Assembly (NCBI GenBank): GCA_900471815.1
Contig: UICE01000003.1
Coordinates: forward strand, 457,558-521,557
Direction of reading: 5' to 3'
DNA: 64,000 nt
From: Hyphomicrobiales bacterium
Lineage (GTDB): Bacteria > Pseudomonadota > Alphaproteobacteria > Rhizobiales > Rhizobiaceae
Below are positions 6,265 to 56,240 of the stretch, one piece after another (position 1 is the first letter of the stretch; every line of letters begins with the position of its first letter). Below the pieces are notes generated by a model. That model was given only the letters and a program-made list of their open reading frames with translations. It did no database searches and had not been told where the DNA came from. The translations under genes were made by a program, and so were the position numbers.

Positions 6265-6325
6265 TCTAATGGCCTTTGTCAGCATTTTCCTTGCCCTTTG
6301 ATTACGAATCCTGTCTCTCAGGATC

Positions 6326-39294: not shown

Positions 39295-42277
39295 GCATCC
39301 GACTCCCATCCTTGTCGAACATGTGGTGGCTCACGATCTCGACCGCGCCGTGCTTGTCGCGCAGGAGATCGGTAGCGAAGGCTCGTTTTCCGATCATCGA
39401 TGTTCCATGTTTGACCAGTGCTAATGCGATGTATTTGCCCAACGCCGGCGAATAACACGCAGCCGTTACGTGACCGAAGCTGTCGGCGGGTTCGCGGGGT
39501 GTCTTATCTGACACAATGTGACTGCCCCCGTTGATTGATTGATTATCGAGCGAAATAAGACCGACAAGTGATAACCGATGCTCGTCTTTCAGGCCGGGTC
39601 GATTAATCATGGCCGAGCCAATATAGGTTTTTTTCTTTGAGAGCATCCAGCCAAGATGAAGATCATGTGCTGTGGTTCGCCCATCGATCTCCGCGCCCGT
39701 CACGTGACCCTTTTCGATACGCAATGTTCCAAGTGCTTCCAATCCATAGGGGACAATGTCGAATTGTTTACCCGCAGCTATAAGCGCCTCCCAAATACGC
39801 GTTCCATGCCCAGCGCCAGAATAAACTTCGTAAGCCAGTTCCCCAGAGAACGACAGACGGCAGATCATCACCGGAATATCGGCAATGCGACCATAAACAA
39901 TACCCATAAATGGCAAGGCCGTATTGTCCACTTTGGTTCCGGTAACGCATGTTTCGAGCACGGAACGCGATTTGGGGCCTGAAATAGCGGCTCCAGCCCA
40001 AACGTCGGTTACGGATGTGAGATGGACACGCAGTTCCGGCCATACGCAGTCGAGATAATATTCCAGATGTTGCATGACCGGACCGGCATTGGCCGTCGTG
40101 GTTGTCATCAAAAATTGGGTTTCGCCAAGACGCCAGGTGGTGCCGTCATCAAAAACGATACCATCCTCACGCAGCATGAGACCGTAGCGCGCCTTTCCGA
40201 CAGGAAGCGTCGAGAACATATTGGTATAAACACGGTCGAGAAATTCCGCCGCGTCGGGCCCCTGAATATCGATCTTGCCCAATGTAGATACATCGACAAT
40301 GCCAACGCCCTCACGCACGGCGCGGGCTTCGCGCGTATATGCCTGCTCAATGGTTTCGCCGTGGCTACCATAGATCATGGGACGATGCCAAAGGCCGGCT
40401 TCGTAGGTCTTGGCGCCATTCGAGATGTGCCAATCATGCATTGGAGTCAGCCGATGGGGGCGCAGATCACCATAGCGCTCTCCAGCGATGGCGCCCATGG
40501 ACACAGGCGTAAATGGCGCACGAAATCTCGTAGTGCCAGCATCAGGAATTGAGATGCCGCGAATGTCGGCCATGATGGCAAGGCCGGGGACATTTGAAGT
40601 CTTGCCCTGATCTGTTGCCATGCCAAGAGTGGTATAGCGTTTGAGATGCTCGACCGAATGAAAACCTTCGCGATAGGCGAGGCGAATATCACTTGCGGTT
40701 ACGTCATGCTGAAAATCGACAAAAGCTTTCTGCGATTTTCCGGCTGGTTCGATCTCAAAGACTGGTGCAGGAGAACTATCCAGCATGGGTGCCTCCACAC
40801 TCGGCAGAACAAGTCTGCTTTTGGCCGAGCCCTTGGTGGCCGCATCTGAAAGAACGCTGATTGTATCCATGTAGCCAGCAGCTGACCCGGTGACGACCCA
40901 GTTCTGGTTGGGTTCTGGCGCGAGGAAAGCTTGTAAATCCTCATCCCACTCGGGTTTTCCACCGGCTTGGCTAGCAAGGTGAATGACCGGCGACCACCCA
41001 CCGGATACACCCAGACAGTCAGTTTTTATCTCCCGCGGAGCACCAGATATCCGTCCTGTCGTCATATTGAAATGCTGGACAGTTATAGCGCTTAAGGATT
41101 TTCCAGCATGGGTGCCGGTGACGGCCGATCCGAGCAGCAATTCAGCACCGAGAATATTGGCAATATCCCTGCAAGCGCCAGATACGTCGGGACGGACGTC
41201 GACAATAGTGGTTACTGCAATGCCAGCCAGTGACAATGTTCGCGCTGCATCATAAGCGCTGTCATTATTGGTGAAGAAGGCAACGTTCTTTCCCGCCGCC
41301 ACGCCATACTCGACAGCAAAGCGGCGTACAGCGTCGGCCAGCATGACTCCGGGACAATCATTGCCGGGGAAAACGATTGGACGTTCGAACGCGCCTGTTG
41401 CGAGAATGGTTTTACCCGCGCGAATTACCCAATGACGTTGGCGCGGTTGTCCCTTGGTTCGGTTTGGCTTGTGATCAGAAACGCGCTGGACAGCTGTTAA
41501 AACGTTTCCGTCATAATATCCCCAGACAGAGGTGCGGGTCAGAAAGCGAACGTTCGGGAGATTTGCAAGGGCTTCGGCTTTTTCGCGTGCCCAAACTGCC
41601 GGATTACGTCCGTCAATAATTTCGCCGGAAGCTAATAGAGAGCCACCAGCGACAGGTCGCTCTTCCGCAATAATAACCCGTGCTCCGGTTGCGGCTGCGG
41701 CTTCAGCGGCGATAAGGCCTGCGGGGCCGCTCCCTACTACAAGCACATCGCAAAATGCATTCATTCGCTCGTAGCGGTCTGGATCAGCGGCGATGCCTGC
41801 TTTTCCAAGCCCCGCCGCGCGCCGGATAAACCGTTCGCAAAACATCCAGAAGCGAGTGCTTTTCAACGGGCCAATCGCCGGGCCCATAAAGGTTTTATAA
41901 TAGAAACCTGCTGAGAGAAGCGAGCCTGCCAGCTGGTTGACGGCCATCAGATCATGTTCAAGGGACGGAAAACGGTTCTGGCTTTGAACGGCAAGGCCAT
42001 CAAAAATTTCCAGCTCGGTGGCTCGCACATTCGGCTCGCGAACATCGCCTGAAATGATTGTGACCAGCGCATTAGGTTCATCACTGCCTGCTGCAAGTAG
42101 GCCGCGCGGACGGTGATATTTGAAAGAGCGTCCGAAAAGCGTGACGCCATTGGCAAGCAATGCCGAAGCGAGCGTGTCACCTGGATGGCCGCTATAGGCC
42201 CTGCCGTCGAATGTAAATCCAACGGATTTAGCGCGCTCAATCTGCCCGCCATTTGGAAGTCGCGAACTTGTCATCAC
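39287..42277 (-). CDS. soxA: sarcosine oxidase alpha subunit
   Basis: A 996-residue subunit. It has an N-terminal 2Fe-2S ferredoxin-like domain (GDTLASALLANGVTLFGRSFK), an NAD-binding Rossmann part (LVVGSGPAGLIAAEAAA near residue 155), and a C-terminal GcvT-like folate domain from about 610 that takes the methyl group as methylene-tetrahydrofolate. It works with SoxB, SoxD and SoxG to oxidise sarcosine to glycine. The start overlaps the soxD stop. The catalytic SoxB subunit is not encoded next to it. Confidence 0.96.
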   Translation of the reverse strand: MMTSSRLPNGGQIERAKSVGFTFDGRAYSGHPGDTLASALLANGVTLFGRSFKYHRPRGLLAAGSDEPNALVTIISGDVREPNVRATELEIFDGLAVQSQNRFPSLEHDLMAVNQLAGSLLSAGFYYKTFMGPAIGPLKSTRFWMFCERFIRRAAGLGKAGIAADPDRYERMNAFCDVLVVGSGPAGLIAAEAAAATGARVIIAEERPVAGGSLLASGEIIDGRNPAVWAREKAEALANLPNVRFLTRTSVWGYYDGNVLTAVQRVSDHKPNRTKGQPRQRHWVIRAGKTILATGAFERPIVFPGNDCPGVMLADAVRRFAVEYGVAAGKNVAFFTNNDSAYDAARTLSLAGIAVTTIVDVRPDVSGACRDIANILGAELLLGSAVTGTHAGKSLSAITVQHFNMTTGRISGAPREIKTDCLGVSGGWSPVIHLASQAGGKPEWDEDLQAFLAPEPNQNWVVTGSAAGYMDTISVLSDAATKGSAKSRLVLPSVEAPMLDSSPAPVFEIEPAGKSQKAFVDFQHDVTASDIRLAYREGFHSVEHLKRYTTLGMATDQGKTSNVPGLAIMADIRGISIPDAGTTRFRAPFTPVSMGAIAGERYGDLRPHRLTPMHDWHISNGAKTYEAGLWHRPMIYGSHGETIEQAYTREARAVREGVGIVDVSTLGKIDIQGPDAAEFLDRVYTNMFSTLPVGKARYGLMLREDGIVFDDGTTWRLGETQFLMTTTTANAGPVMQHLEYYLDCVWPELRVHLTSVTDVWAGAAISGPKSRSVLETCVTGTKVDNTALPFMGIVYGRIADIPVMICRLSFSGELAYEVYSGAGHGTRIWEALIAAGKQFDIVPYGLEALGTLRIEKGHVTGAEIDGRTTAHDLHLGWMLSKKKTYIGSAMINRPGLKDEHRLSLVGLISLDNQSINGGSHIVSDKTPREPADSFGHVTAACYSPALGKYIALALVKHGTSMIGKRAFATDLLRDKHGAVEIVSHHMFDKDGSRMHG

Positions 42278-42549: not shown

Positions 42550-42784
42550 TGTTTCATTGTCCGATAAGCGAATCGCTGGAGTTATTATTATGATGGTGGC
42601 GTGAATCGCGTACAAACAGAAGACAGGATATGTAGGCTTTTGCAAAGACGCGAACTGCGGTTCTAACAATATGCTATTGTCAGCCGGGTACAATCATCAG
42701 TATAGCGGCGATGACTGTCATGGAACCGACCCCGTTTTTCTTGATCACGCCTTGATTGTGCCGAGAAGAGGGGGCAAGTCGACA

Positions 42785-45274
42785 ATGAAACTCTCCCTGC
42801 ATGGATTTGAACCTGTGATTTCTTCATTTCGGCAAATTATTCTCGCCTTCGCAATGTTTCTGGCCGTCGCCTTACAAACACATTCGACCTGGGCCCAGAC
42901 TGCTGAGCAGCCAGTCGCCGCTGCTAGTTCTGGCATTGTTGCCGAACAGCGTCCCCTCATCGATGATCTAAAAAAGCAGATCTCCGGTTATCAGCAGAAG
43001 TTCAAGGACAAAGCAGATGCAGATGCTGCACTGGCCGATCTACGTCTTGACTTGGAAGCGACGGCAAAAAAGCTTCTCGAGATCGGCGTATCATTTCGTC
43101 CTCGATTGACTGAAATCAACTCGCGTTTGGAACAATTGGGTCAGCCTCCCGCACAAGGGCAACCGGCCGAGGCGCAGATTGTCACTGACGAGCGGACAAG
43201 ACTGACAACCGAAAAAGCGGAAATCAATGCTGTTCTTGGAGAAACCGAGGATCAGTTGATCGCCGTTAACAAAATGGTTGATGCTATCAGCGATGCCAGG
43301 CGGGAGCTGTTTGCGAACACACTGTCTCAACGCGTCGATATAAATTATTCGCTGGGGAGCGAAGTGGCGGAAGCTTACGGCCGCGAACTGCAAACGATGA
43401 ACCAGCGCATATCATCATGGTGGCGCTTTGTTATCGCATTCAAATGGCAATCCATGCTGGCGGCGGCAGCAATGGCTGCCGTAACAGCATTGGTGCTGTT
43501 GATTGGCGGGCAGCGAGTCTTGGGTCATCTTTATTTGCGCGATGCAACGGTTGAGGCTCCCTCATATCTTAGCCGGTTGGCAGTGGCATTCTGGTCAACC
43601 CTTATGCGCTCGCTAACCGTTGTGGTTTTCCTTGCCACCACCTATTTCTTTCTCGACTATTTCAATGTCCTCAGAGAAGATATTGCTTCTCTTTTCTACA
43701 CTTTATTCAGCGTTATCGGGATCGTCTATTTTGTTCACGCCTTGGCCCAGGCGGTTATCTGTCCGGGCGCGCCCAATTGGCGGCTTGTGCGGGTTGCTCC
43801 TCGGCCCGGTCGCATATTGATGGTTCTCATTACGGCAACCGCCACGATCACGGGCTTGGATTATCTGGCGGACACAATTAACCAGATCGCAACATCGCCT
43901 TTGTCACTGACAGTGGCCAAAAGCCTCTTTGCCACAATATTGGTTGGTCTTCTCATCTTTTCGATCGCCTTGCTAAAACCGCTGGAAGATCAGGAAACGG
44001 GTAAGGTCAAGCCGTGGCCTAAGACCATAAGCTACTCTCTATACATTATCGCATTATTGCCGGTTGTTGCTGCCCTGCTTGGTTATATCGGGCTTGCGCG
44101 TTTTGTTTCGCAGCAAGTCGTTATAAATGGTGCAGTCGTTGTTACAATGTATCTCGGCTTTCTGACCGCTCGGGCCGTGTCAGACGAAAATGCTCTATCA
44201 AGCACAGTGTTTGGTAGGGCTATTCAAACCCGTTTTGGTATGGATGAAACAACGCTGGACCAGCTTGGGCTTGCAGCCAGTATTGTTATTTATGTGTTTG
44301 TCCTTCTGTTGGGCATACCGGTTATATTGCTGTTGTGGGGCTTCCAGTGGAGCGAAATGACGGCCTGGTTCCTCAATGTCGCCACTGGCTTTCAGATCGG
44401 ATCAGTCAACATCTCGCTTGTGGCGATTGCCATAGGCATTTTGCTGTTTGCAATGTTCTATGCCTTTACGCGTTGGTTTCAGGGGTGGCTCGATACAAAA
44501 GTCATGGCGCGCGGCAAGCTCGATTCCGGCGTGCGCAATTCCATCCGCACCGCAGTTGGTTATCTGGGCCTGGGTATAGCAGGTGTAATTGGTATTTCTG
44601 CCGCTGGTATCAATCTATCAAGTCTCGCTCTGGTTGCTGGCGGTCTATCACTGGGTATCGGTTTTGGTATGCAGGCGATCGTGTCCAACTTCGTTTCCGG
44701 TCTTATCCTTCTGGCCGAGCGTCCGTTCAAAGTAGGAGACTGGATCGAAACGGCCGGCGTTGGCGGTATTGTGAAGAAGATCAGCGTGCGCGCAACCGAG
44801 GTGGAAACCTTCCAGCGCCAGTCAATAATTATCCCGAACTCTTCGTTTATTAATGGCAATGTCGGCAACTGGACCCATCGCAACAAATTGGGCCGTGTCG
44901 AAATTGCGGTTGGCGTTTCCTACAAATCGGACCCTAAACGCGTTTATGATGTGTTGATGGAAATCGCACGGGCACAACCTCTCGTGCTCAAAAACCCCGA
45001 ACCGTTCGTAGCCTTCAAGGCATTAACATCTTCTACGATGGATTTTGAACTGCGCGTTCATCTTGCCGATCTGTCAAACTCCGGCACCGTTCAGAACGAT
45101 ATCCGATTCGCGATGATTGATCGTTTTGCCGAGGAGGGGATAGAAATTCCCTACCCGGCACGGGACGTGAAGCTCAATCTGGAAGAGGCAGATGTTCTGA
45201 TTGAAGCATTGACCAGCAGGATCAAGGCCGAGATCACGTCTGAGGCCAAGAAGCCGAAATCCAAACCTGTTTAG
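42785..45274 (+). CDS. large MscS-family mechanosensitive channel (DUF3772-type)
   Basis: An 829-residue inner-membrane channel. It has a signal peptide (to about HSTWAQ), a periplasmic region with coiled-coil character (residues 45-210), about ten membrane helices, and the MscS core near residues 620-760, including AGGLSLGIGFGMQAIVSNFVSG of the pore helix and ERPFKVGDWIE of the beta domain. It should release solutes on osmotic downshock. ATG 42785 starts the signal peptide directly. No partner gene is linked. Confidence 0.93.
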   Translation: MKLSLHGFEPVISSFRQIILAFAMFLAVALQTHSTWAQTAEQPVAAASSGIVAEQRPLIDDLKKQISGYQQKFKDKADADAALADLRLDLEATAKKLLEIGVSFRPRLTEINSRLEQLGQPPAQGQPAEAQIVTDERTRLTTEKAEINAVLGETEDQLIAVNKMVDAISDARRELFANTLSQRVDINYSLGSEVAEAYGRELQTMNQRISSWWRFVIAFKWQSMLAAAAMAAVTALVLLIGGQRVLGHLYLRDATVEAPSYLSRLAVAFWSTLMRSLTVVVFLATTYFFLDYFNVLREDIASLFYTLFSVIGIVYFVHALAQAVICPGAPNWRLVRVAPRPGRILMVLITATATITGLDYLADTINQIATSPLSLTVAKSLFATILVGLLIFSIALLKPLEDQETGKVKPWPKTISYSLYIIALLPVVAALLGYIGLARFVSQQVVINGAVVVTMYLGFLTARAVSDENALSSTVFGRAIQTRFGMDETTLDQLGLAASIVIYVFVLLLGIPVILLLWGFQWSEMTAWFLNVATGFQIGSVNISLVAIAIGILLFAMFYAFTRWFQGWLDTKVMARGKLDSGVRNSIRTAVGYLGLGIAGVIGISAAGINLSSLALVAGGLSLGIGFGMQAIVSNFVSGLILLAERPFKVGDWIETAGVGGIVKKISVRATEVETFQRQSIIIPNSSFINGNVGNWTHRNKLGRVEIAVGVSYKSDPKRVYDVLMEIARAQPLVLKNPEPFVAFKALTSSTMDFELRVHLADLSNSGTVQNDIRFAMIDRFAEEGIEIPYPARDVKLNLEEADVLIEALTSRIKAEITSEAKKPKSKPV

Positions 45275-45340: not shown

Positions 45341-45401
45341 TGTTTGTGAAAGAGTAAGTTTGACTCTTGGTAACAGGGACGGTGGTAACACTGGAATGGA
45401 T

Positions 45402-45665
45402 ATGAACAAGGTTGCTATTGCTATTCTTATGAGTGCCATCTCTGCCGGGTCGGCTTTTGCCGCCAGTATCACAAATGGCGATTCATCTGCTCAGACTATT
45501 GTTGTCACGGAAGGTTCGAGCAAGACCGAGCTTCAGGTGGGAGCTGGCGAGACTGTCGATTTTTGCAGCAATGGTTGCTTTGTTACATTTTCCAATGGCG
45601 ACCGTGAGGCATTGACCGGCGGTGAAACCGTCGAGATCAAAGGCGGCAAAGCCACCATCAAGTAG
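45402..45665 (+). CDS. small exported protein of unknown function
   Basis: An 88-residue protein with a clear signal peptide (MNKVAIAILMSAISAGSAFA). The mature part is about 68 residues, acidic with Gly/Thr-rich beta-type repeats and two close cysteines (DFCSNGCF) that could form a disulfide in the periplasm. I do not know the family; similar short proteins are common in this order. It has its own candidate promoter and terminator, so it is a single-gene unit that may be well expressed. Confidence 0.75.
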   Translation: MNKVAIAILMSAISAGSAFAASITNGDSSAQTIVVTEGSSKTELQVGAGETVDFCSNGCFVTFSNGDREALTGGETVEIKGGKATIK

Positions 45666-45868: not shown

Positions 45869-47308
45869 GTGATAGATTCTCCTTCGAGTAACAAAGTTTT
45901 GGACTTGGTCGTAGACCTTGATGGCACGCTGATAGCGACTGATCTTCTTTGGGAAAGTGTGTTTCAGTTACTGAAGAAGAATATGCTCTACATTTTTCTT
46001 TTGCCGGTTTGGTTACTTAAAGGGAAAGCAAATCTAAAACATCAGATATCGCTGTGCGTTACTATTGATCCCTCAACATTGCCTTATCGATCCGAGTTTA
46101 TTGAATATCTAAGGCAGGAACGCGATCAAGGCCGCAGATTGGTCCTCGCCACCGGTTCGGCACGCAGCTTCGCAGACAGTATCGCTGGGCATCTTGGGAT
46201 ATTCGATGCGGTTTATGCGACCGATGAAAACCGCAACCTGACGGCACACAAAGCAGCGTTTCTGTTGGAAACCTACGATAATGTGAAGTTCGCTTATGCC
46301 GGAAACAGTCGTGCTGACCTGCCGGTGTTCGATGCAGCGAGCGAGGTCATCGTGGTCGCCCCGGATCGGGCAGCACGCAAATGGCAACAAACGCATTCTA
46401 CCCGGCTCTTCGAAGCACCCAAAACCAACTTCAAAATATTCCTGAAGATGCTTCGGGTCCACCAATGGATGAAGAACACGCTGATATTTGTTCCAGCCAT
46501 TTTAGACCATATGTTGATGGAATGGCAGGTAATCGTAAATTCCATCTTTGCGTTCTTTGCGTTTTCCGCTGCAGCCTCGGCAATCTACATTATCAATGAC
46601 TTGTTCGATCTTCCGCTTGACCGACAGCATGCCCGCAAGAAGAACCGTGCTTTCGCCAGCGGTGCTTTTTCTATTCGTTTCGGCCTTGTTGTTGCTGCGT
46701 CGCTTCTCCTGATAGCGGGGTTGCTCGCATCGCAACTGCACTGGACTTTTGGTGCCATGCTAGCAGGTTATCTGATCACGACCACGGCCTATTCAATCTC
46801 AATAAAACGAATGTTGCTGGTGGATGTTTTTACCCTCGCAGGGCTATATACCTTGCGTATTCTTGCGGGTGCAGCGGCCAATCAGACTGAGGGCTCGTTC
46901 TGGTTGTTGGCATTTTCATCATTCTTCTTTTTGTCGCTGGCACTGGTGAAGCGATATGTGGAACTAAAAAACTCTGTCGTTGAGGAGAATAATCGCATTG
47001 CGGGCAGGGGATACCGGCGCGCTGATCGTGAAGTTATTGCTCAATGCGGAATCGCTTCGGCATTCGCTGCGGCCCTCGTTCTGGCGCTGTATGTGGACAG
47101 TGACGCCGTCGTAAGTCTTTACGCTTATCCATGGATGATCTGGCCGCTGTGCCCAATCGTACTCTATCTCAACATTCGCATCTGGATATTGGCATATAGA
47201 GGTGAAATGCATGACGACCCGGTTGTGTTTATCATATCGGATTGGCGCAGCCAGGTCGTAATAGCTATTGGAGCTGCTCTCCTTCTTTATGGCGGTATGC
47301 GCTCGTGA
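45869..47308 (+). CDS. HAD phosphatase - UbiA prenyltransferase fusion (decaprenyl-phosphate phosphoribosyltransferase-like)
   Basis: A 479-residue two-domain protein. The N-terminal HAD domain starts VVDLDGTLIATD (D16, D18), with the Thr/Ser motif in ATGSARS and the acidic motif in GNSRADLPVFDA near 145-156. From about 190 comes a UbiA-type membrane domain with NDLFDLPLDR (residues 243-252), of the kind that moves phosphoribose onto polyprenyl phosphate. The HAD part could then remove the 5'-phosphate. The start is GTG 45869. The next gene overlaps by 4 bp. Function follows from the mycobacterial Rv3806c comparison and is inference. Confidence 0.85.
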   Translation: MIDSPSSNKVLDLVVDLDGTLIATDLLWESVFQLLKKNMLYIFLLPVWLLKGKANLKHQISLCVTIDPSTLPYRSEFIEYLRQERDQGRRLVLATGSARSFADSIAGHLGIFDAVYATDENRNLTAHKAAFLLETYDNVKFAYAGNSRADLPVFDAASEVIVVAPDRAARKWQQTHSTRLFEAPKTNFKIFLKMLRVHQWMKNTLIFVPAILDHMLMEWQVIVNSIFAFFAFSAAASAIYIINDLFDLPLDRQHARKKNRAFASGAFSIRFGLVVAASLLLIAGLLASQLHWTFGAMLAGYLITTTAYSISIKRMLLVDVFTLAGLYTLRILAGAAANQTEGSFWLLAFSSFFFLSLALVKRYVELKNSVVEENNRIAGRGYRRADREVIAQCGIASAFAAALVLALYVDSDAVVSLYAYPWMIWPLCPIVLYLNIRIWILAYRGEMHDDPVVFIISDWRSQVVIAIGAALLLYGGMRS

Positions 47309-48627
47309 CTGGAAATTATAACAGTTTTGGGTTGATCGACAGACGTCAACGTGTGGCTATTCCGCTTGAGCAAGCTCGAGAGCTTTTTGAAAACCAGCGT
47401 TATGACCCGGGCGGTTTTCTGGCGTTTGGCAATGGAAAGTCTTACGGCGACTCCTGCCATAATGATCAAGGAACGCTGATCGATATGCGTGGCAGCGATA
47501 AACTCATTGAGTTTGACGCCAACACTGGTCGTCTGACGGCGCAAGCCGGAATAACGCTTTCCAGCATCATAAGCATCGGAGCAAAGCACGGCTATTTCCT
47601 GCCGGTTACGCCGGGCACGCGCTTTGTAACATTGGGCGGTGCGATAGCCAACGACGTCCACGGCAAAAATCATCACCGACGTGGAACATTTGGCTGTCAT
47701 GTTGAGCGCTTTGAGCTTCTCAAGTCAGATGGTTCCACGATCACATGCTCGCCCGAAACGAATTCCCGGCTTTTCGAGGCCACAATCGGTGGTCTGGGCC
47801 TGACTGGCGTCATTCTTGCTGCGACAGTTCAGCTTATGAAGGTCGGGTCTCTGGATGTCCTTGAACGTATCCGTCCCTTTAGGAGTTTGGGAGAATATTT
47901 CAGCCTTGCCGTTCAGGCCGATGCGGACAATGAATATTCTGTAGCCTGGGTTGATCAGCTGGCATCTGGTGCTGATGCTGGGAGAGGCGTCCTCATAAGT
48001 GGTAATCATGCTGACAATGGCAATTTCGCGGTGAGTACAAAACCCGGCCGGTTGAATGTACCATTCGACCTCCCGATCTCCGCGTTGAATTACCCCAGCC
48101 TAAAGCTGTTCAATGCCGCTTATTATAATCTGAAGGGCCGCCAACAGAAGTTACATCTGAGCGGCTATCAGGACTTCTTTTATCCGCTTGATCAGGTTTT
48201 AAATTGGAACAGGCTGTACGGCAAAGCCGGTCTCTTTCAGCATCAAAGTGTCATTCCTGAAGCCGCGGCACCATCCGTAATACCAAACATGCTAAAAGCC
48301 ACGCGCGATGCCGGGCAAAGCTCTTTTCTCACGGTGCTGAAAAGGTTCGGTGATATTCAATCCCCTGGAATCCTTTCCTTTCCTCAAGCGGGCTACACTC
48401 TCACCGTGGATTTCCCCAATCGCGGTCGCCGCACGCTTGGCTTGCTGGCTGAACTTGACCGGATGACAATTGCCAGTGGGGGGCGGGTCAATCCTTATAA
48501 GGACCAACGAATGAGCGCTGCGGTTTTCAAAGCCAGCTTTCCGCGCTGGAAGGAACTTGATCAGGAGCGGGACCCAGAAATCAATTCGAACTTTTGGCAG
48601 CGAACTGCCTTGGCTGGAGCAATGTGA
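47305..48627 (+). CDS. DprE1-like FAD oxidoreductase
   Basis: A 440-residue FAD-binding-4 oxidase. GNGKSYGDSCHNDQGTLIDM and GGAIANDVHGKNHHRRGTFG match the FAD region of DprE1, which oxidises C2 of decaprenylphosphoryl-ribose. The C-terminal GYTLTVDFP has Thr (about residue 367) where I recall the M. tuberculosis enzyme having Cys387, the residue attacked by benzothiazinones; the Lys in PYKDQR (K399) is kept. The GTG start overlaps the previous stop (GTGA). It very likely acts on the product of the HAD-UbiA fusion. Confidence 0.88.
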   Translation: MTGNYNSFGLIDRRQRVAIPLEQARELFENQRYDPGGFLAFGNGKSYGDSCHNDQGTLIDMRGSDKLIEFDANTGRLTAQAGITLSSIISIGAKHGYFLPVTPGTRFVTLGGAIANDVHGKNHHRRGTFGCHVERFELLKSDGSTITCSPETNSRLFEATIGGLGLTGVILAATVQLMKVGSLDVLERIRPFRSLGEYFSLAVQADADNEYSVAWVDQLASGADAGRGVLISGNHADNGNFAVSTKPGRLNVPFDLPISALNYPSLKLFNAAYYNLKGRQQKLHLSGYQDFFYPLDQVLNWNRLYGKAGLFQHQSVIPEAAAPSVIPNMLKATRDAGQSSFLTVLKRFGDIQSPGILSFPQAGYTLTVDFPNRGRRTLGLLAELDRMTIASGGRVNPYKDQRMSAAVFKASFPRWKELDQERDPEINSNFWQRTALAGAM

Positions 48628-48689
48628 TGAAAGCATCAAACTTTAATAATGTGCTTGGTGTGTTCTCAAGACAGGATTGTTATCGATCG

Positions 48690-48707
48690 GGGGACATAAG
48701 GGGACAT
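48690..48707 (+). repeat. tandem GGGGACAT repeat at the flippase ribosome site
   Basis: GGGGACAT occurs at 48690-48697 and again at 48700-48707, ten bases apart. The second copy is the Shine-Dalgarno sequence of the ATG at 48712. Two ribosome-site copies in register could be a standby site or a binding element. Confidence 0.45.
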
Positions 48708-48711
48708 TTCA

Positions 48712-49140
48712 ATGACTAAGTATATCCCGTTCATTCTGTTTACGGTGATGACAAACGCGGCTGCCCAGGTCCTGCTAAAATATGGAATGATAAGCTTGGG
48801 ACCAATCAGCTTCAGTGCCGACACAATTATCCAACGCGTCTTTCAGATTGTATTCAATCCGTGGGTATTTGCCGGGCTTTTCATGTTTGTCATTTCCATG
48901 GCGTCCCATCTCTTTGTGCTTTCAAAGGTTGATCTTTCCTACGCTTATCCATTTCTAAGCCTTGCTTACGTCGTCGTGGCGGTCATCGCCTGGGCGCTGT
49001 TCAAGGAAGAGCTTGGAGCATACAAGCTTGCGGGAATTGCATTTATTATGGTGGGCACAATCCTTATCGCACAAGGCGGGCACGAGAGCGGATCGGCACT
49101 GGATGCTGAGAAATCGTCAACGCTAAACACACCATCATAA
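48712..49140 (+). CDS. small EamA/ArnE-like membrane transporter (lipid-sugar flippase candidate)
   Basis: A 142-residue inner-membrane protein with four helices, of the small multidrug resistance/EamA superfamily. The N-terminal AAQVLLKYG and the central VDLSYAYPFLSLAYVVVAV are typical of ArnE/ArnF, which flip undecaprenyl-phosphate-aminoarabinose to the periplasm. A polar tail of about 25 residues follows. Between a DprE1-like enzyme and sugar-modifying genes it is likely to flip a polyprenyl-phosphosugar. A single small protein would act as a homodimer. Confidence 0.82.
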   Translation: MTKYIPFILFTVMTNAAAQVLLKYGMISLGPISFSADTIIQRVFQIVFNPWVFAGLFMFVISMASHLFVLSKVDLSYAYPFLSLAYVVVAVIAWALFKEELGAYKLAGIAFIMVGTILIAQGGHESGSALDAEKSSTLNTPS

Positions 49141-49153
49141 GTGGAACCGAGGC

Positions 49154-50149
49154 ATGAGACATATTATTTTTGGTGGTGACGGGTTTGTCGGGCGGCATCT
49201 CGCACCAAAGCTTGCGGCAGAAGGCGAAGAGGTGCTTGTCGCTGATATCGTTAAGAGCAGTCTGCCACATTACGGCGACGTCCAGTTCGTGCAATGCGAT
49301 GTCACAGACACCAGTGCAATTGCCAACGTCGGAATTAAAGCTGATGACATGGTGTACAACCTGTCAGCGAAAATGCTGTCGCCGTTACAGGTCAGGGCAA
49401 AGCGACATGATTTCTTTTTCCCCGTAAACTACTACGGGACCGAAAATATCATCAAGGCTTTGGATAAGGCTGGCGCCAACAAGCTGGTGCACTACACGAC
49501 GGATATGATTTACGGCCATACATATGTTTGGCCACAAACCGAGGAACATCCGGCTGCTCCACTTGGCGAATACGGATTGTCAAAGTGGAAGACAGAGGAA
49601 CTGGCGACCGAGTGGCGCAAGCGTGGGATGAACATCTCCTTGTTTCGGCCCCGCTTGATTATCGGTCCCGGGCGGCTTGGTATCCTGGAAAAGCTCTTCA
49701 AGCTGGTGGATTACAATCTGCCTGTCCCAATGATCGGTTCTGGCAAAAACCCTTATCAGTTCATTTCCGTGTTTGATTGCGCGGATGCGGCCTATGCAGG
49801 TTGGAAGGCAGGTGTTCCAAACGAAGCTTATAATCTTGGTTCACTCAACCCGCCACCGGTTCGCAAGCTTCTGGGCGATCTTGTGAGGTTCGCTGATTCT
49901 AAATCATTGCTTGTGCCGACACCGGCTTGGGCAGTGAAACGCACGCTGGATTTTTTCGACATGATCAACATGCCCATCATGGATCCCGAGCAATATCTGA
50001 TCGCTGATGAAATGTGCGTGCTTGATGTTTCGAAGGCGGAAAGACAATTGGGTTGGATTCCAAAGCATCGGGACGAGGACATGCTGATTGCGGCCTATAA
50101 AGAATACCGGCTGATCAAAGAAGGCAAAGCGCCAATGGCAGCGCATTAA
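49154..50149 (+). CDS. extended SDR NAD-dependent epimerase/dehydratase
   Basis: A 331-residue extended short-chain dehydrogenase. The NAD motif IFGGDGFVGRHL is at residues 4-15 and the catalytic pair is YGLSK (Tyr near residue 140), with a Thr in YTTDMIYG before it. It would reduce, oxidise or epimerise a nucleotide- or lipid-linked sugar. It lies 13 bp after the flippase gene and 12 bp before the aminotransferase. In mycobacteria a classical SDR, DprE2, reduces the keto product of DprE1; this could be a functional substitute, though it belongs to a different SDR class. Confidence 0.85.
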   Translation: MRHIIFGGDGFVGRHLAPKLAAEGEEVLVADIVKSSLPHYGDVQFVQCDVTDTSAIANVGIKADDMVYNLSAKMLSPLQVRAKRHDFFFPVNYYGTENIIKALDKAGANKLVHYTTDMIYGHTYVWPQTEEHPAAPLGEYGLSKWKTEELATEWRKRGMNISLFRPRLIIGPGRLGILEKLFKLVDYNLPVPMIGSGKNPYQFISVFDCADAAYAGWKAGVPNEAYNLGSLNPPPVRKLLGDLVRFADSKSLLVPTPAWAVKRTLDFFDMINMPIMDPEQYLIADEMCVLDVSKAERQLGWIPKHRDEDMLIAAYKEYRLIKEGKAPMAAH

Positions 50150-50161
50150 CGGGGAATGGCG

Positions 50162-51598
50162 ATGAGTAACGTTCAAGAAATGACAAAAGCCGATACGTCG
50201 GTTATCCGGCCGAACCTGTTGTCAGTCGATGATGCCAAGGCAATGACTTTGCCACGCATGACAGAAATCTTCACAAAGCATCTCAATCCGGGACAACTTC
50301 ACTTCATGAAGTTGCTTGGCTTTCACAAGATCAAGATCGAACGGGCTGAGGGGATGTATTATTACGATCAGAACGGGCGAGCGATCCTCGATTTTTTCGG
50401 AGGATTCGGATCGCTTGCATTCGGTCACAACCACCCGAAGATCGTGGAAGCACGCAAAAAATTTCAAGATGAGAAGCGGCAGGAAATTGCAATCGCCTTC
50501 ATGTCGCAATATGCCAGCGCGCTCGCTCATAATCTGGCAGCATGTTCGCCCGGCGATCTGGATATGGTATTTCTGGGCTCGTCTGGCTCTGAAGCGATGG
50601 AAGCGGCCATCAAGGTTGCCGAGCGTGCGGCAGGCCCAAAGAAACCCAAGATTGTTTATGCCGAAAACTCGTTTCACGGCAAGACCAAGGGCGTCCTGTC
50701 TATTACGGACGGTTCGCTTTACCGTGGCGAATTCAAGCTGGTTGACAATACGATCCGCGTGCCCTTCGGCGATATCAATGCCGTAGAAAATGCTTTCAAG
50801 TCGGATCCAGAGATTGGCGTCATTGTTCTGGAGACGATTCAGGGCGGCGGCGGCATTATTCAGGCTCCGAACGAATATTGGCAAAAACTACGGGCGCTTT
50901 GCGATCAATATGGCGTACTTTGGGTTGCCGACGAAGTTCAGTGTGGTTTTGGCCGATCCGGCAAATTCTATGCTTTTGAACATGCCGGCGTGGTTCCGGA
51001 TGTCACCGCATTGGCCAAGTCGCTGGGTGGAGGCAAGGCGGCGGTCGGGGCGATGATCGCCCGGCGCGATGTCTATATGAAAGCCTATGGCACGCCGAAG
51101 ACCGCTATGATCCATGCCATGGCCACTTTCGGAGGTATCGGGGAAGCATGCGTAACTTCGATCGAAGCGATAAATATTCTCTACGATGATAATCTGATCG
51201 CCAATTCAGCAGCGACGGGCGCTTATCTCCTGAGTAAGCTTGAAGAGCTGAAAGCAAAGCATCCAGCTATGATCAAGGATGTGCGCGGCAAGGGCCTTAT
51301 GGTTGGCCTGGAGTTCCATGACTTCTCCAAAACCGTTCCCATGGTGTTGCGTCCGGTATTGGCCGTACTCGATGATAAACTTAAAGGTTCGCTTCCTGGC
51401 TTTATTGGAAGTCATTTACTTCGCGACCATGGCGTGCTGGTTGCCTTCACCGAGTACAATCGCAATGTTGTCCGACTGGAACCTCCATTGATCTGTGAGC
51501 GCGAACATGTCGATGAATTCATCAAGGCGCTGGATGAGGTTCTTTCGCGTGGGATTGTGCGGATTGTGAAGGATTTCGTGAAAGCCCAAGTAAAATAG
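50162..51598 (+). CDS. class III PLP-dependent aminotransferase
   Basis: A 478-residue aminotransferase of the ornithine/putrescine type. The PLP phosphate loop is GSSGSEAMEAA (near residue 138), the ring Asp is in VADEVQCGFGRSG (about residue 260) and the Schiff-base Lys in ALAKSLGGGKA (about 285). Members usually act on terminal amino groups or aldehydes. ATG 50162 has GGGGA 6 bp upstream; an ATG at 50156 is also in frame. It ends the operon before a terminator. Its inclusion suggests an amino sugar or amino-alkyl product. Confidence 0.9.
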   Translation: MSNVQEMTKADTSVIRPNLLSVDDAKAMTLPRMTEIFTKHLNPGQLHFMKLLGFHKIKIERAEGMYYYDQNGRAILDFFGGFGSLAFGHNHPKIVEARKKFQDEKRQEIAIAFMSQYASALAHNLAACSPGDLDMVFLGSSGSEAMEAAIKVAERAAGPKKPKIVYAENSFHGKTKGVLSITDGSLYRGEFKLVDNTIRVPFGDINAVENAFKSDPEIGVIVLETIQGGGGIIQAPNEYWQKLRALCDQYGVLWVADEVQCGFGRSGKFYAFEHAGVVPDVTALAKSLGGGKAAVGAMIARRDVYMKAYGTPKTAMIHAMATFGGIGEACVTSIEAINILYDDNLIANSAATGAYLLSKLEELKAKHPAMIKDVRGKGLMVGLEFHDFSKTVPMVLRPVLAVLDDKLKGSLPGFIGSHLLRDHGVLVAFTEYNRNVVRLEPPLICEREHVDEFIKALDEVLSRGIVRIVKDFVKAQVK

Positions 51599-51621: not shown

Positions 51622-51645
51622 AAGCCGGCTTTGTCCGGCTTTTTC
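51622..51645 (+). terminator. intrinsic terminator of the polyprenyl-sugar operon
   Basis: AAGCCGG (51622-51628) pairs with CCGGCTT (51635-51641) around CTTTGT, with a T-run to 51644. It closes the five-gene operon and separates it from the convergent membrane protein gene. Confidence 0.88.
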
Positions 51646-53372
51646 TATTGGGTTGGTAACCTTATTCCTGATCTGAGCAAGAGATCCCAACACTCGTTGA
51701 GTTTGATGATTGTCCGATCGTCCAGCGCTTTGGCGTAGATGTCTTGTAGATGACGCCGCGCTGTTGTTGTCGGGCAAGTCGGCCGCAGCACACCGTCTGT
51801 GGCGCGCACAGAAGCTTCTACCAACGGCGTGAGCGTCCCGACTGTGCGGAATGGATCTGCACCAATTTGAATATGCCGCGTGGCATCCCGATCCAATATC
51901 CAGGGAAATGGATCAGTGAAATCAAGGTTCATCAAGCTATTTAGACGTATATTGTTTGTAGTCTCAAATTGCTTGATGGCTTTAACCGCATGGTCGACCG
52001 ATAAAAGCCAGTACATCTGATAGTCAAGCTCGGCATAGAACCGCCAGCTGGGCAATTGCCCTTCATCAGCTAGCTGCTGATAGGACTTCACGTTTTGCGT
52101 ATAATGGTCTTCCAGCAGTAGAGCTCGGTCCATTATATCTGCACGCGTCGAAACCAGTCCCATTGTTTTTAATTCGGATACTGGGGCAGGGATATAATTG
52201 GGGGCAACGGCGACAAAACGCAAAGTGCCGTGGATGACCTTCGTTATCGTGGGAATGGCAGTGAAAGCGATAAGGCAAAAGATGATTAGCCGTTTTTTTT
52301 CGTCAAATGCCGTCGACTTGTAAATTATCGCCAGCAAAACCGGCCAAAGGAAGATAAACTCCTGGCTGCCCGTGTTTTGCGTCTCAAGGAATGTCCCTGC
52401 AACCATTAAGATGCTGACCCATAGCCAATCCCGGTCGAGAAAAGACCTGCTTTTCTGCAACATTGTTGTTTGGGAATGGCCGCGCCAATCAAGCCAAAAC
52501 AAAAAGATGATCAGACCGGCTGCAGCAATTATAACGTCGAGTTTATTCGAAAAGACCGTCAGAAAACGTGAAATCAATAGTCCTTCGTTCAAACTGACCA
52601 GCGCAATGATGTTTGCGATATAGGATGAGACCATTCCGTTATTGAGCTCAAGTCCCGCTAAGACAATCATGAAAACCGCGAGTGCCAGAATTACATGGCG
52701 TAGCAGGAAACGGCCTGTAAGTACGGCAAAAAGGCCAATCATTCCCCCCGCAAGAAATCCCGTGATCTTCGTGAAAAAAAGCGCAAGCATCGCCAGCGCC
52801 GCAATAATTGCTAAGGCGCGACCTCTAGGCAAAAATATAAGCGCGCTTGTTAAGATGTAGAGAAATAAAGAGGTGTGGCGATTGTAGATGCCAAACCCAC
52901 TCACGCCTGGATAGGAATGAAAGGCTTGGGTATTCATAGGACAAAGCGCAAAAATCAGAAAAGGTATTAGGATAGCCATCGCTAATTTGCGATTGTCTTT
53001 ATGTACCACGGCAATAACTGCCGCCATCAGCGGTATTGCTGATATCAGGACAGACCATTGTGCCAGCAATGTCGGTTGCCCAGAGGGAAAAAGCGTTTGC
53101 AACCAATAAAACTGATAATATTCCATAGCGCCGACGGGGGCTTGAAAATCGACGGCGGGAATTTGTCCGAGCTTCAACCGCTGTGCTGCGTCCAGATATA
53201 TGTAGGTATCCCAGTACATCGGGCCGATGGGAATAATGAGCGGTAAGCTCAGTAGAACGCAGAAAACCAGTGCAGTTAGAAACAGCAAACTCAATGGCGA
53301 AAAAAACCACGTAACCGATTGTTTCCTGCCCGTTGTCAAATCCACCATTTGCTTTCGCTTCAGCTCGTTCAC
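51645..53372 (-). CDS. GT-C-like integral membrane glycosyltransferase candidate
   Basis: A 575-residue protein with about eleven membrane helices up to residue 370 and a C-terminal soluble domain of about 200 residues. The first periplasmic loop, just after helix 1, reads YWDTYIYLDAAQRLKLGQIP, with acidic residues where GT-C enzymes (PMT, ArnT, arabinosyltransferases) keep their catalytic Asp. GT-C enzymes take sugars from polyprenyl-phosphate donors on the periplasmic side. It converges on the operon that appears to make such a donor, so a role as the user of that donor is plausible. I cannot name the acceptor. Confidence 0.65.
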   Translation of the reverse strand: MNELKRKQMVDLTTGRKQSVTWFFSPLSLLFLTALVFCVLLSLPLIIPIGPMYWDTYIYLDAAQRLKLGQIPAVDFQAPVGAMEYYQFYWLQTLFPSGQPTLLAQWSVLISAIPLMAAVIAVVHKDNRKLAMAILIPFLIFALCPMNTQAFHSYPGVSGFGIYNRHTSLFLYILTSALIFLPRGRALAIIAALAMLALFFTKITGFLAGGMIGLFAVLTGRFLLRHVILALAVFMIVLAGLELNNGMVSSYIANIIALVSLNEGLLISRFLTVFSNKLDVIIAAAGLIIFLFWLDWRGHSQTTMLQKSRSFLDRDWLWVSILMVAGTFLETQNTGSQEFIFLWPVLLAIIYKSTAFDEKKRLIIFCLIAFTAIPTITKVIHGTLRFVAVAPNYIPAPVSELKTMGLVSTRADIMDRALLLEDHYTQNVKSYQQLADEGQLPSWRFYAELDYQMYWLLSVDHAVKAIKQFETTNNIRLNSLMNLDFTDPFPWILDRDATRHIQIGADPFRTVGTLTPLVEASVRATDGVLRPTCPTTTARRHLQDIYAKALDDRTIIKLNECWDLLLRSGIRLPTQ

Positions 53373-53726
53373 TTTTTACAATTGATGATCAGGATCGCGT
53401 CAATTTTGCCCGGCAGCTTTGTCGCAAAGGCTTGCAAATGGATCACGGTCCCTTCGCCTTTGCTCATCTTGTCCAAACGAAAAAGCGTTGTACCATTTCA
53501 CCGGGACTAACAGCTTATGACCCTACCCTTCAGTTCTCCATATTGCGTTAAATTGTAAGGCTGATCTTCAAGTTTTTTAGTTAAGGCAGGCAGTGTTTAC
53601 TATGCGTCGCGCCATGTTTTGGGCATGTCGCAAACAGGCCTTAGCAATAGACACGCAGAACGGCATAGTGCAAAAAATCATAGATGCCGTTCGAACCCCT
53701 CGATCGATACCAAAGGATGTTTAGAA
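53373..53726. promoter_or_regulatory. divergent intergenic region with a TGTCGCA motif
   Basis: These 354 bp separate the membrane glycosyltransferase gene from the dimethylglycine dehydrogenase-like gene and should carry promoters for both. TGTCGCA is found at 53626-53632, near GCGTCGC at 53604-53610. The same heptamer occurs twice upstream of the AraC-type regulator (58255-58261 and 58356-58362). No gene-like frame in this stretch has a convincing ribosome site. Confidence 0.4.
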
Positions 53727-56240
53727 ATGAAAACTGAGGCGCGTGTTGTCGTTATCGGCGGAGGTGTGGTGGGTGTTTCAACACTTTATCACTTGGCCAA
53801 AAAAGGCTGGAGCGACGTTGTCCTGATCGAACGGAAAGAACTGACTTCCGGGTCCACTTGGCATGCGGCTGGCCTGCTTCCGCTCTTTAACATGAGCTAT
53901 TCAGTAGGCCAAATCCACAAGTACTCAGTAAAATTCTATCAGGAGCTGCAGGAAGAAACCGGTATGAATGTCGGTTTTACCAATTGCAGCAATATTCGTC
54001 TTGCCCGTACCAAGGATCGCTGGGACGAGTACATGTATTATGCCGGTGTCGCTGAGACGATCGGAGTGCCGGTGAAGCTACTGACACCGGATCAGGTAAA
54101 GGAAATTTGGCCTCTCGCGGAGATGGACGGAATTTTAGGTGCGATTCAGCATCCCGAAGATGGATATATTCAACCGGCTGATCTGACACAGGCGCTTGCC
54201 AAAGGCGCACGCGATCGCGGTGCAACGATTTATCGTTATACAACTGTGCTCGGCATCGAACAGTTGCCGTCCGATAAATGGCTGGTAAAGACCGATAAAG
54301 GCGATATCACCGCGGATCACGTTGTGTCCGCCACCGGTAATTTTGCTCGAAAGACCGGCAAAATGGTGGGGCTCGATGTGCCGGTTATTCCGGTCGAGCA
54401 CCAATACATTGTTACAGAGCCTCATCCTGCTATCGTTGAACGCAAAGCAAAAGGCTTGCCGGAGATGGGCGTTCTGCGCGAAAGTGATAGTTCCTGGTAT
54501 ATGCGCGAAGAAAATGGCGGGCTTTTGCTTGGGCCATATGAGCGCGGCGCTCCGGTCTGCTATGTCGATGGACCTTCAGATGGCAGCGAATACGAGCTTT
54601 TCCAGGAAGATTTGGACAGGCTCGAGCCTTACATTGAAACAGCCATTGCGCGGGTTCCCGCCTTTGGCGAAGTTGGCATCAAGAAGGTCTATAATGGTGC
54701 TATTGCTTATACGCCAGATGGTTCGCCGATCATTGGACCTGCGCCTCGCCTGAAAAATTTCTGGCTCAATGAAGGTCATTCCTTTGGCGTGACTGCGGCT
54801 GGCGGCGCTGGCTGGCAGTTGGCAGAATGGATTGTGGAAGGCGAACCCTCGATCGATATGATGGGCGTCGATCCAAGACGCTTTGGACCCTACGCAACTG
54901 AGGGTTACCTCAAAGAAAAGAACGAAGAGGCCTATGCGGAAGTCTTCTCGGTTCATTATCCGGATGAAGAACGCGGTGCAGCGCGCCCCTTGAAGCGCTC
55001 GCCAACATATGAGCGCCAGAAGGAATTGGGTGCTGTGTTCGGGACTGTCTATGGTTGGGAACGCGCCAACTGGTTTGCACCGATAGAATATGAACTGGAC
55101 GTCGCAAAGCTGGACAAGCCGGACGTCCTGATGAATCACAATCATCCCAAGCCGGTAAACGGCAAAGTGAAGGAATTGTGGTCATTTCGCCGTTCGAATT
55201 ACTTCGAACATGTTGGCCTCGAGATCAAGAACGTTACCAGCAATGTCGGCCTGCTCGATATGTCGGCGTTCGCTAAAATGGAAGTGTCGGGTCCTGGTGC
55301 ACGCCAATGGCTTGATTCAATTCTGGCGAACCGCATCCCCAAAAAACAGGGACGCATCGCACTTTGCCATCTTCTGACGAAGCAGGGTGGCGTTCGCTCT
55401 GAGTTCACGGTCTATGAGTGGGTGCCTGGCAAATTCTATTTGGTCTCTGCCGGGGCATATGAGAACCACGATCATGATTATCTCTATAAGCTATTGCCGA
55501 CCGATGGCTCAGTATCGCTACGTCCCATCACGTCGACCTATGGGGTTTTGGTTCTTGCTGGACCAAACAGCCGCAAGGTGCTTCAGAAGCTGACACGTGC
55601 AGATCTTTCCAATGAAGCATTCCCTTGGCTGTCCGGTAAAGAAATAAGCGTAGGCACTGCGACTGCTCATGCCCTCCGAGTTAATTTCGTCGGCGAGCTC
55701 GGATGGGAATTGCATCACCCCATCGAACAGCAGAGCGCCATATACGAAATGTTGCTTGAAGCCGGCGCAGAGTTTGGCATCAAGCCATTTGGCATCCGTG
55801 CCATGACTGCAATGGCCGTTGAGAAGTCCTACCGTCTCATCCCACGCGAACTATCCATTGAGTATAATGCCTTTGAAAGTGGACTTGACCGGTTTGTTCA
55901 TCCGAACAAGGGTGACTTTATTGGTCGCGACGCTGTCGTGAAGGCACGTGAAGACGGCTTGAAATGGAACTTCGTTACCTTGGAGGTGCATGTACCTGGC
56001 GTATCCGATGTCGACGCAAGGGGCAGCGAACCAATTTACTCCAAAGGCGAACTCGTTGGACGTGCAACTCACGGTACTTACGGCTGGCGCTTAGGTAAAA
56101 GTCTTGCGCTGGCAATGGTAAAGCCGGAATACTCGGCTTTGGGTACAGAACTCGAAATCAAGATTCTCGGTAAGACTCACAAGGCCACGGTCATTCCGGA
56201 ATCACCTTTCGACACTGAAAATGAACGACTGAAGGCTTAA
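53727..56240 (+). CDS. dimethylglycine/sarcosine dehydrogenase-like flavoprotein with GcvT domain
   Basis: An 837-residue enzyme. The FAD motif VVVIGGGVVGVSTLYHL is at residues 7-23, and GSTWHAAGLL places His46 where related dehydrogenases attach FAD covalently. From about residue 440 the GcvT-like and glycine-cleavage C-terminal domains bind folate and receive the methyl carbon. It demethylates dimethylglycine, sarcosine or a close relative to feed one-carbon metabolism. ATG 53727 follows AAAGGATG; a frame open to 53619 is ignored. It is a single-gene unit with a strong terminator. Confidence 0.92.
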   Translation: MKTEARVVVIGGGVVGVSTLYHLAKKGWSDVVLIERKELTSGSTWHAAGLLPLFNMSYSVGQIHKYSVKFYQELQEETGMNVGFTNCSNIRLARTKDRWDEYMYYAGVAETIGVPVKLLTPDQVKEIWPLAEMDGILGAIQHPEDGYIQPADLTQALAKGARDRGATIYRYTTVLGIEQLPSDKWLVKTDKGDITADHVVSATGNFARKTGKMVGLDVPVIPVEHQYIVTEPHPAIVERKAKGLPEMGVLRESDSSWYMREENGGLLLGPYERGAPVCYVDGPSDGSEYELFQEDLDRLEPYIETAIARVPAFGEVGIKKVYNGAIAYTPDGSPIIGPAPRLKNFWLNEGHSFGVTAAGGAGWQLAEWIVEGEPSIDMMGVDPRRFGPYATEGYLKEKNEEAYAEVFSVHYPDEERGAARPLKRSPTYERQKELGAVFGTVYGWERANWFAPIEYELDVAKLDKPDVLMNHNHPKPVNGKVKELWSFRRSNYFEHVGLEIKNVTSNVGLLDMSAFAKMEVSGPGARQWLDSILANRIPKKQGRIALCHLLTKQGGVRSEFTVYEWVPGKFYLVSAGAYENHDHDYLYKLLPTDGSVSLRPITSTYGVLVLAGPNSRKVLQKLTRADLSNEAFPWLSGKEISVGTATAHALRVNFVGELGWELHHPIEQQSAIYEMLLEAGAEFGIKPFGIRAMTAMAVEKSYRLIPRELSIEYNAFESGLDRFVHPNKGDFIGRDAVVKAREDGLKWNFVTLEVHVPGVSDVDARGSEPIYSKGELVGRATHGTYGWRLGKSLALAMVKPEYSALGTELEIKILGKTHKATVIPESPFDTENERLKA

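Follow-up and report, generated by a model that had tools for sequence, protein, structure and literature searches.

Lipid-linked pentose systems close to the locus

Systems that build pentoses on polyprenyl phosphate are described from Citrobacter, from mycobacteria, and as the Arn pathway, and they are the closest counterparts of the locus presented here. The locus is a five-gene operon in a stretch of 64,000 nucleotides from a Hyphomicrobiales bacterium; this whole stretch is called the window. The operon encodes a HAD-UbiA fusion, a DprE1-like oxidase, an EamA membrane protein, an extended short-chain dehydrogenase/reductase (SDR), and a class III aminotransferase. On balance, we favor a polyprenyl-phosphate-linked amino-pentofuranose as the compound that the locus makes and uses; it would be flipped and transferred outside the cell.

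The three-component systems of Citrobacter youngae O1 and O2 combine a HAD-UbiA protein that synthesizes polyprenyl-phosphoribose with an ArnE-like flippase and a GT-C transferase (PMC11127046, 2024, cited throughout from excerpts). The activity of the UbiA-HAD protein was shown, and the scheme for the flippase and the GT-C enzyme was shown or proposed. The SDR ORF13 is required for xylofuranose in Citrobacter, and DprE1/DprE2 homologs were found where arabinofuranose is present (PMC11127046). The word aminotransferase is absent from the main text of that paper. The locus shares with these systems a HAD-UbiA protein with the same motifs, a small ArnE-like protein (here a predicted flippase), a predicted GT-C transferase, and an accessory SDR (ORF13 by description only), and it adds the DprE1-like oxidase and the class III aminotransferase. 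It fits the three-component frame, the SDR and the aminotransferase apparently taking over the DprE2 step.

The mycobacterial decaprenylphosphoryl-arabinose pathway (Rv3806c, Rv3807c, and DprE1/DprE2) has in common with the locus, by prediction, a UbiA phosphoribosyltransferase, a 5-phosphatase step, a DprE1-like C2 oxidase, and GT-C users. Unlike this pathway, the locus lacks a DprE2 ortholog and has the SDR and the aminotransferase instead. Its phosphatase belongs to another family and is fused, and its predicted flippase is also of another family (after PMC11127046).

The Arn pathway (ArnB, ArnC, ArnEF, and ArnT), which supplies 4-amino-4-deoxy-L-arabinose (Ara4N) to lipid A, yields a polyprenyl-phosphate-bound amino-pentose, as is predicted here, and has an ArnE/F-like flippase. 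ArnT is also the best fold match of a membrane protein, F, that is encoded convergently to the operon. The Arn route starts from uridine diphosphate (UDP)-glucuronate, and the ArnB family is another aminotransferase class. In contrast, the locus is predicted to start from phosphoribosyl pyrophosphate (PRPP), oxidation would take place on the lipid, and the aminotransferase belongs to class III (PF00202). The main known amino-pentose carried by polyprenyl phosphate is Ara4N, which alters the charge of the outer membrane.

DprE1/DprE2 operons are also found within the same genus or order, in another Phyllobacterium (L112) and in two further loci (L113 and L114). They share HAD-UbiA and DprE1 relatives with the locus, and differ in having DprE2, a different extended SDR, a flavin adenine dinucleotide (FAD) amine-oxidase-like gene, and GtrA, with no ortholog of the aminotransferase. 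L112 (3261-11635) contains HAD-UbiA, DprE1, DprE2, the extended SDR, the amine-oxidase-like gene, GtrA, and a membrane protein of 719 residues; relatives of the first six of these are present in L113 and L114. The SDR of the window was rejected as an ortholog of the extended SDRs of L112 (21% identity over 223 residues) and L114, other matches being local and marginal.

A tight operon with a conserved gene order

The window lies on contig C12 of a 4.6-Mb host genome (G000). Among named genomes, the closest matches to the locus are from Phyllobacterium; the best 80 of 435 that encode a relative are hereafter the 80 named loci. The operon contains the following features, numbered by position in the window.

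45869..47308, + strand: HAD phosphatase-UbiA fusion (NF006088, PF01040, PF12710), predicted polyprenyl-phosphate phosphoribosyltransferase and 5-phosphatase

47305..48627, + strand: DprE1-like FAD oxidase (NF053785, alignments to solved DprE1), predicted to oxidize C2 of a lipid-linked ribose

48712..49140, + strand: EamA/ArnE-ArnF-like membrane protein of 142 residues (family match), predicted flippase of a lipid-linked sugar

49154..50149, + strand: extended SDR (PF01370, 109.7 bits), predicted epimerase or oxidoreductase on a lipid-linked pentose

50156..51598, + strand: class III pyridoxal phosphate (PLP) aminotransferase (PF00202, 298 bits), predicted to aminate a keto-pentose

51622..51645 (about), + strand: terminator-like hairpin with a T run, 3' of the aminotransferase gene

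An earlier sequence-only reading of this DNA had placed these five families in one tight operon ended by a terminator. All five open reading frames (ORFs) and their families were recovered in this order on the + strand (45869-51598), and the spacing is tight. With its inferred GTG start at 47305 (the ORF is open from 47242), the DprE1-like gene has a 4-base overlap with the UbiA stop. The remaining gaps are 84 bases (DprE1-like/EamA), 13 bases (EamA/SDR), and 6 bases (SDR/aminotransferase). The terminator-like hairpin was read by eye; the automatic scan did not list it.

The five genes have the same order and orientation in 18/18 intact loci fetched from relatives, a count from which a deletion remnant (L031) was excluded. 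They also occur in order in 79 of the 80 named loci, where gaps are distances between tblastn match ends and not between annotated genes; the 80th (L106) has no UbiA, and its contig ends there. Because the same order recurs in both collections, the grouping is not chance. The named loci belong to Phyllobacterium, Rhizobium, Agrobacterium, Neorhizobium, Shinella, Mesorhizobium, Aquibium, Devosia, Ochrobactrum-group Brucella, and Rhizobiales lacking a genus name. The search for the set in other genomes, suggested along with the sequence-only reading, located it in many bacteria associated with soil or plants. Regular separation of the genes in relatives had been named beforehand as the outcome that would speak against that reading; they stay together as counted above, with two distant genomes rearranged.

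Of 59 genomes searched, 19 contain a complete ortholog of the aminotransferase, and G019 contains a truncated one. The ortholog is present in 15/20 genomes of the same genus (window included), 4/15 of other genera of the family, and 0/24 of the rest of the order. Among 398 sampled genomes of the phylum, it was found in seven, all from the window's own order. Among the five proteins, conservation is highest in the SDR and the aminotransferase. Mean identity over 14 loci of the genus is 90% for the aminotransferase, 88% for the SDR, 78% for UbiA, and 71% for DprE1; over four loci of other genera, the values are 77%, 71%, 49%, and 50%, respectively. In the remnant of G019 (L031, about 5898-7411), a deletion has brought the start of UbiA next to the aminotransferase gene's end, with the two out of frame, and the adjoining GT-C-like gene stays open. 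This remnant is a natural loss of the pathway in a Phyllobacterium.

Families and conserved residues

The HAD-UbiA protein matches NF006088 with 611.9 bits (cut-off 351) and the decaprenyl-phosphate phosphoribosyltransferase in PDB 8j8j with an expectation value (E) of 5e-19. In an 11-sequence alignment, N243, D244, D247, D251, R362, and E365 of the UbiA domain are invariant, as are the motif residues D16 and D18 of the HAD domain (PF12710). In Citrobacter ORF15, mutations were made at the positions corresponding to these UbiA residues and to the HAD nucleophile, and the R and E mutants retained activity (PMC11127046). The fusion of phosphatase and transferase proposed by the sequence-only reading is present, but it is not new: it constitutes the curated family NF006088, and the Citrobacter fusion has been characterized (PMC11127046).

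The DprE1-like protein aligns with solved DprE1 chains (best E 3.7e-62). In this alignment, it keeps SYGD and HGKNHH as well as K420, which corresponds to the Lys in the 'AKDSR' stretch of DprE1, and Thr occupies the position of Cys387 of DprE1.

The EamA protein scores 63 bits as ArnF-like and 40 bits as ArnE-like, both under the equivalog cut-offs (99 and 92). It is a predicted flippase by its family and its likeness to ORF14 of PMC11127046. The SDR keeps the motifs GGDGFVG, TTD, and YxxxK, and its relatives of at least 60% identity adjoin the aminotransferase gene or lie near it in the fetched loci. The aminotransferase aligns with 4ppm (titled Aminotransferase; PigE by NCBIfam match) and with putrescine aminotransferase 4uox. 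Its K288, which we take to be the PLP lysine, lines up with the AK(A/S)LGGG stretch of putrescine aminotransferase.

Apparent exchange of DprE2 for the SDR and the aminotransferase

Of the 59 genomes, 22 have a strong match to DprE1 (E of 1e-100 or better). In 19 of them, the aminotransferase is present and no DprE2 match improves on 4.7e-17 (identities of 25-32% where listed). In the other three (G003, G044, and G053), DprE2 is at least 54% identical and there is no aminotransferase ortholog; G003 supplied the DprE2 query, hence 100% identity there. The window's genome has no DprE2 ortholog, with a best match of 2.9e-17 versus 5e-143 in G003.

An even sample of 289 class genomes shows a similar division: DprE1 was detected in 30 of them, the aminotransferase in two (the window's own genome and G263). 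A DprE2-like gene adjoins DprE1 in all 28 loci of this sample that have no aminotransferase (33-47% identity to the queries; one match is cut by a contig end), and in 31/31 when L112, L113, and L114 are included. A DprE2 profile was also run against 24 whole genomes. It reached 6.1e-56 or better in 10/10 genomes of the DprE2 type (three of which had supplied the profile) and was no better than 4.3e-21 in 12/12 genomes with the aminotransferase; G108 and G249, which are of neither type, gave 3.6e-23 at best. The two sets of aminotransferase genomes without DprE2 (0/19 and 0/12) have five genomes in common. No DprE2-like match at E 1e-10 was found in the DNA of the 80 named loci. DprE1 is present in every fetched locus with a complete aminotransferase. 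Since DprE2 is absent from the searched genomes that have the SDR and the aminotransferase, these two appear to stand in for it. This would be a rule of partner exchange, in which DprE1 works either with DprE2 or with the SDR and the aminotransferase. The sequence-only reading had proposed a DprE1-type lipid-linked pentose pathway; such a pathway, with a different fate of the keto intermediate, has good support from this comparison, and the amino sugar stands as a prediction.

The pairing is also found in other arrangements. In G263, from another order (L115), the layout is EamA-SDR-UbiA-DprE1-aminotransferase. Its SDR and aminotransferase are 60% and 63% identical to those of the window, and its DprE1 comes from another clade. 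In the DprE1 tree, the genes associated with the aminotransferase require two changes on the starred branches. The pairing of SDR and aminotransferase with DprE1 may therefore have arisen more than once, or moved; a DprE1 swapped under a conserved module would yield the same tree. In G694, two blocks are convergent, EamA-SDR-aminotransferase and DprE1-UbiA.

More distant SDRs may point to the substrate of this family. The SDR profile matched five of the 289 class genomes: the window's own, G263, and, with relatives of 26-38% identity, G249, G259, and G108. In the last three, neither the aminotransferase nor DprE1 was matched at the cut-offs applied. Their SDR genes (L133-L135) lie beside EamA, EamA-UbiA, or GT-C-like genes (GT-C-like by eye, and on some short contigs), which suggests that the SDR family acts on lipid-linked sugars. 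In L134 (7532-11295), from a small alphaproteobacterial genome, the distant SDR gene lies between genes for two membrane proteins that look GT-C-like by eye; this 19-kb stretch has no UbiA, DprE1, or aminotransferase match.

A convergent GT-C-like protein and its GT87-like alternative

One gene beside the operon was missed by the sequence-only reading.

51645..53372, - strand: membrane protein F of 575 residues with a predicted GT-C fold (AlphaFold2 and Foldseek), predicted user of the lipid-linked pentose

F has no Pfam or NCBIfam match, and its profile has no match to PDB sequences. Its AlphaFold2 model from a 30-row alignment has a predicted local distance difference test (pLDDT) of 88.4 and a predicted template modeling score of 0.89; an earlier model from 14 rows was poor (pLDDT 57.7). 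Foldseek against the PDB places named GT-C or oligosaccharyltransferase entries at all of the top 16 ranks but one (15 matches); the exception, at rank 9, is a translocon-complex chain. ArnT comes first (E 1.2e-4), followed by oligosaccharyltransferase, AftA, DPY19, AftB, and ALG3/ALG9. The predicted fold of F thus resembles that of a GT-C glycosyltransferase. The membrane protein of 719 residues in L112 was considered as a homolog of F and rejected, as there is no significant match.

Relatives of F occur in 20/59 genomes, namely the 19 with a complete aminotransferase and G019 with the deletion remnant, and in 0/39 genomes without the set or its remnant. In G022, G028, and G032, the F copy is elsewhere in the genome; therefore, adjacency is not required. 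Around the F copies off the cluster (L129-L132), no glycan cluster was recognized from ORF starts, with no family search run.

Two types of locus can be distinguished among the 80 named loci. F is present and convergent in 42 (one match is partial), at most 465 bases from the aminotransferase gene in 41 and 1.8 kb away in one. A co-directional GT87-like membrane protein is encoded at most 203 bases from the aminotransferase gene in 37, and one locus has neither. The GT87 label rests on 21.5 bits against a Pfam cut-off of 25. The GT87-like protein occupies the GT-C slot in most Mesorhizobium loci seen (e.g. L110, 11468-13455). An FkbM-type methyltransferase gene occurs in 24/37 loci of this type, which suggests a methylated product.

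Proposed pathway and competing explanations

The pathway would begin with transfer of phosphoribose from PRPP onto polyprenyl phosphate by the UbiA domain, followed by removal of the 5-phosphate by the fused HAD domain and oxidation of C2 to a ketone by the DprE1-like enzyme. These three steps are predicted from homology and conserved catalytic residues. In place of DprE2, the aminotransferase would then turn the ketone, preferably at C2, into an amine, and the extended SDR may set or invert a neighboring center, perhaps C3, as proposed for Citrobacter ORF13 (PMC11127046). The ArnE/F-like protein would flip the lipid. Finally, F, or the GT87-like protein in most Mesorhizobium loci seen, would move the sugar to an extracytoplasmic acceptor. 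We infer the product, the aminated carbon, and the acceptor; amination of the 2-keto pentose from DprE1 is the simplest reading.

More tentatively, we propose a new donor class of the Rhizobiales: polyprenyl-phosphate 2-amino-2-deoxy-pentofuranose made from PRPP, with the aminotransferase and SDR replacing DprE2, and decorating a surface glycan or glycolipid via either of two exchangeable GT-C enzymes. If true, nitrogen-fixing and root-associated bacteria would have a second, PRPP-derived route to an amino-pentose, which would explain a so far unassigned operon of many genomes and predict a new envelope sugar. The DprE1 intermediate would then be a branch point and not a fixed step to arabinose. 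The HAD-UbiA protein, the flippase, and the GT-C enzyme are of kinds already known, and the aminotransferase branch was not found in print: no description of a DprE1 and aminotransferase set, or of a lipid-linked amino-pentofuranose, was found among the matches listed from open-licence PMC text, as judged by titles and abstract starts.

Several points weigh against the amino-pentofuranose proposal. The DprE1-like protein matches NF053785 with 326 bits (E 4.2e-97), below the equivalog cut-off of 500. The nearest solved relatives of the aminotransferase, 4ppm/PigE and putrescine aminotransferase, are not known to be sugar enzymes. The UbiA proteins of G263 and G694 (L115 and L136) have no fused HAD domain; therefore, the fusion is optional. 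The main independent evidence is the second DprE1 lineage, which rests on one draft genome (G263, 91% complete, 230 contigs) with the genes on a 12.6-kb contig. Relatives are not independent samples, and the counts overstate statistical weight. The fold match of F is modest, with TM-scores of 0.39-0.41 to ArnT, a large root-mean-square deviation, and only two ArnT entries below E 0.001. Another seven aminotransferase genomes were searched for F, which was found in G704 and G694 and not in G596, G452, G497, G392, or G263; G596 has a GT87-like gene in its place, and the short contig of G263 has neither. Lipid A is probably not the acceptor, because Phyllobacterium trifolii carries the five-gene set (L037; PETP02T is the type strain of the species) and the lipid A of PETP02T, in excerpts of PMC5644692, is reported to have a sugar backbone of 2,3-diamino-2,3-dideoxyglucose (GlcN3N) and galacturonic acid (GalA) with no pentose under those growth conditions.

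The alternative that survives best, though we think it unlikely, is that the SDR alone could replace DprE2 as a reductase (or C3 epimerase), giving a neutral arabino-, xylo-, or lyxofuranose, and that the aminotransferase modifies another molecule of the pathway, e.g. the acceptor. The SDR ORF13 alone decides between ribofuranose and xylofuranose side chains in Citrobacter (nuclear magnetic resonance of mutants, PMC11127046), and the distant SDRs of L133-L135 adjoin EamA, UbiA, or GT-C-like genes in genomes without an aminotransferase ortholog. The roles of the SDR and the aminotransferase are inseparable by comparison, because their close forms always occur together in the fetched loci. However, the aminotransferase is the most conserved protein of the set, at 90% within the genus and 77% outside it. 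Its gene directly follows DprE1 in L115, DprE1 accompanies it in every fetched locus where it is complete, and no other ketone-making enzyme was recognized in the set.

Amination at C3 or C5 is still less probable. Here the SDR would oxidize that carbon for the aminotransferase, and the DprE1 product would be used for epimerization. Pairs of SDR and aminotransferase commonly put amino groups into sugars, and the nicotinamide adenine dinucleotide (NAD) and YxxxK motifs are kept in this SDR, but the C2 ketone would need another reductase, and no DprE2 ortholog was found in the aminotransferase genomes searched. An ordinary DprE1/DprE2-type arabinosylation operon with an unrelated aminotransferase as passenger is very improbable, although known pentofuranose systems contain counterparts of four of the five families (PMC11127046), as the aminotransferase gene is in order in 18/18 and 79/80 loci and also accompanies the second DprE1 lineage, and as DprE2 is absent from the aminotransferase genomes searched.

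Neighboring genes

A 101-residue small protein, apparently secreted by its appearance to the eye, is encoded just upstream of the operon (45360-45665) and is present in all 15 Phyllobacterium loci fetched. Further upstream, a gene at 42671-45274 encodes a large membrane protein, MscS-like by eye; many Mesorhizobium and Phyllobacterium loci also have a relative of it upstream of the five genes. Genes resembling sarcosine oxidase/dimethylglycine dehydrogenase by eye (39287-42277 and 53619-56240) flank the locus on either side in Phyllobacterium.

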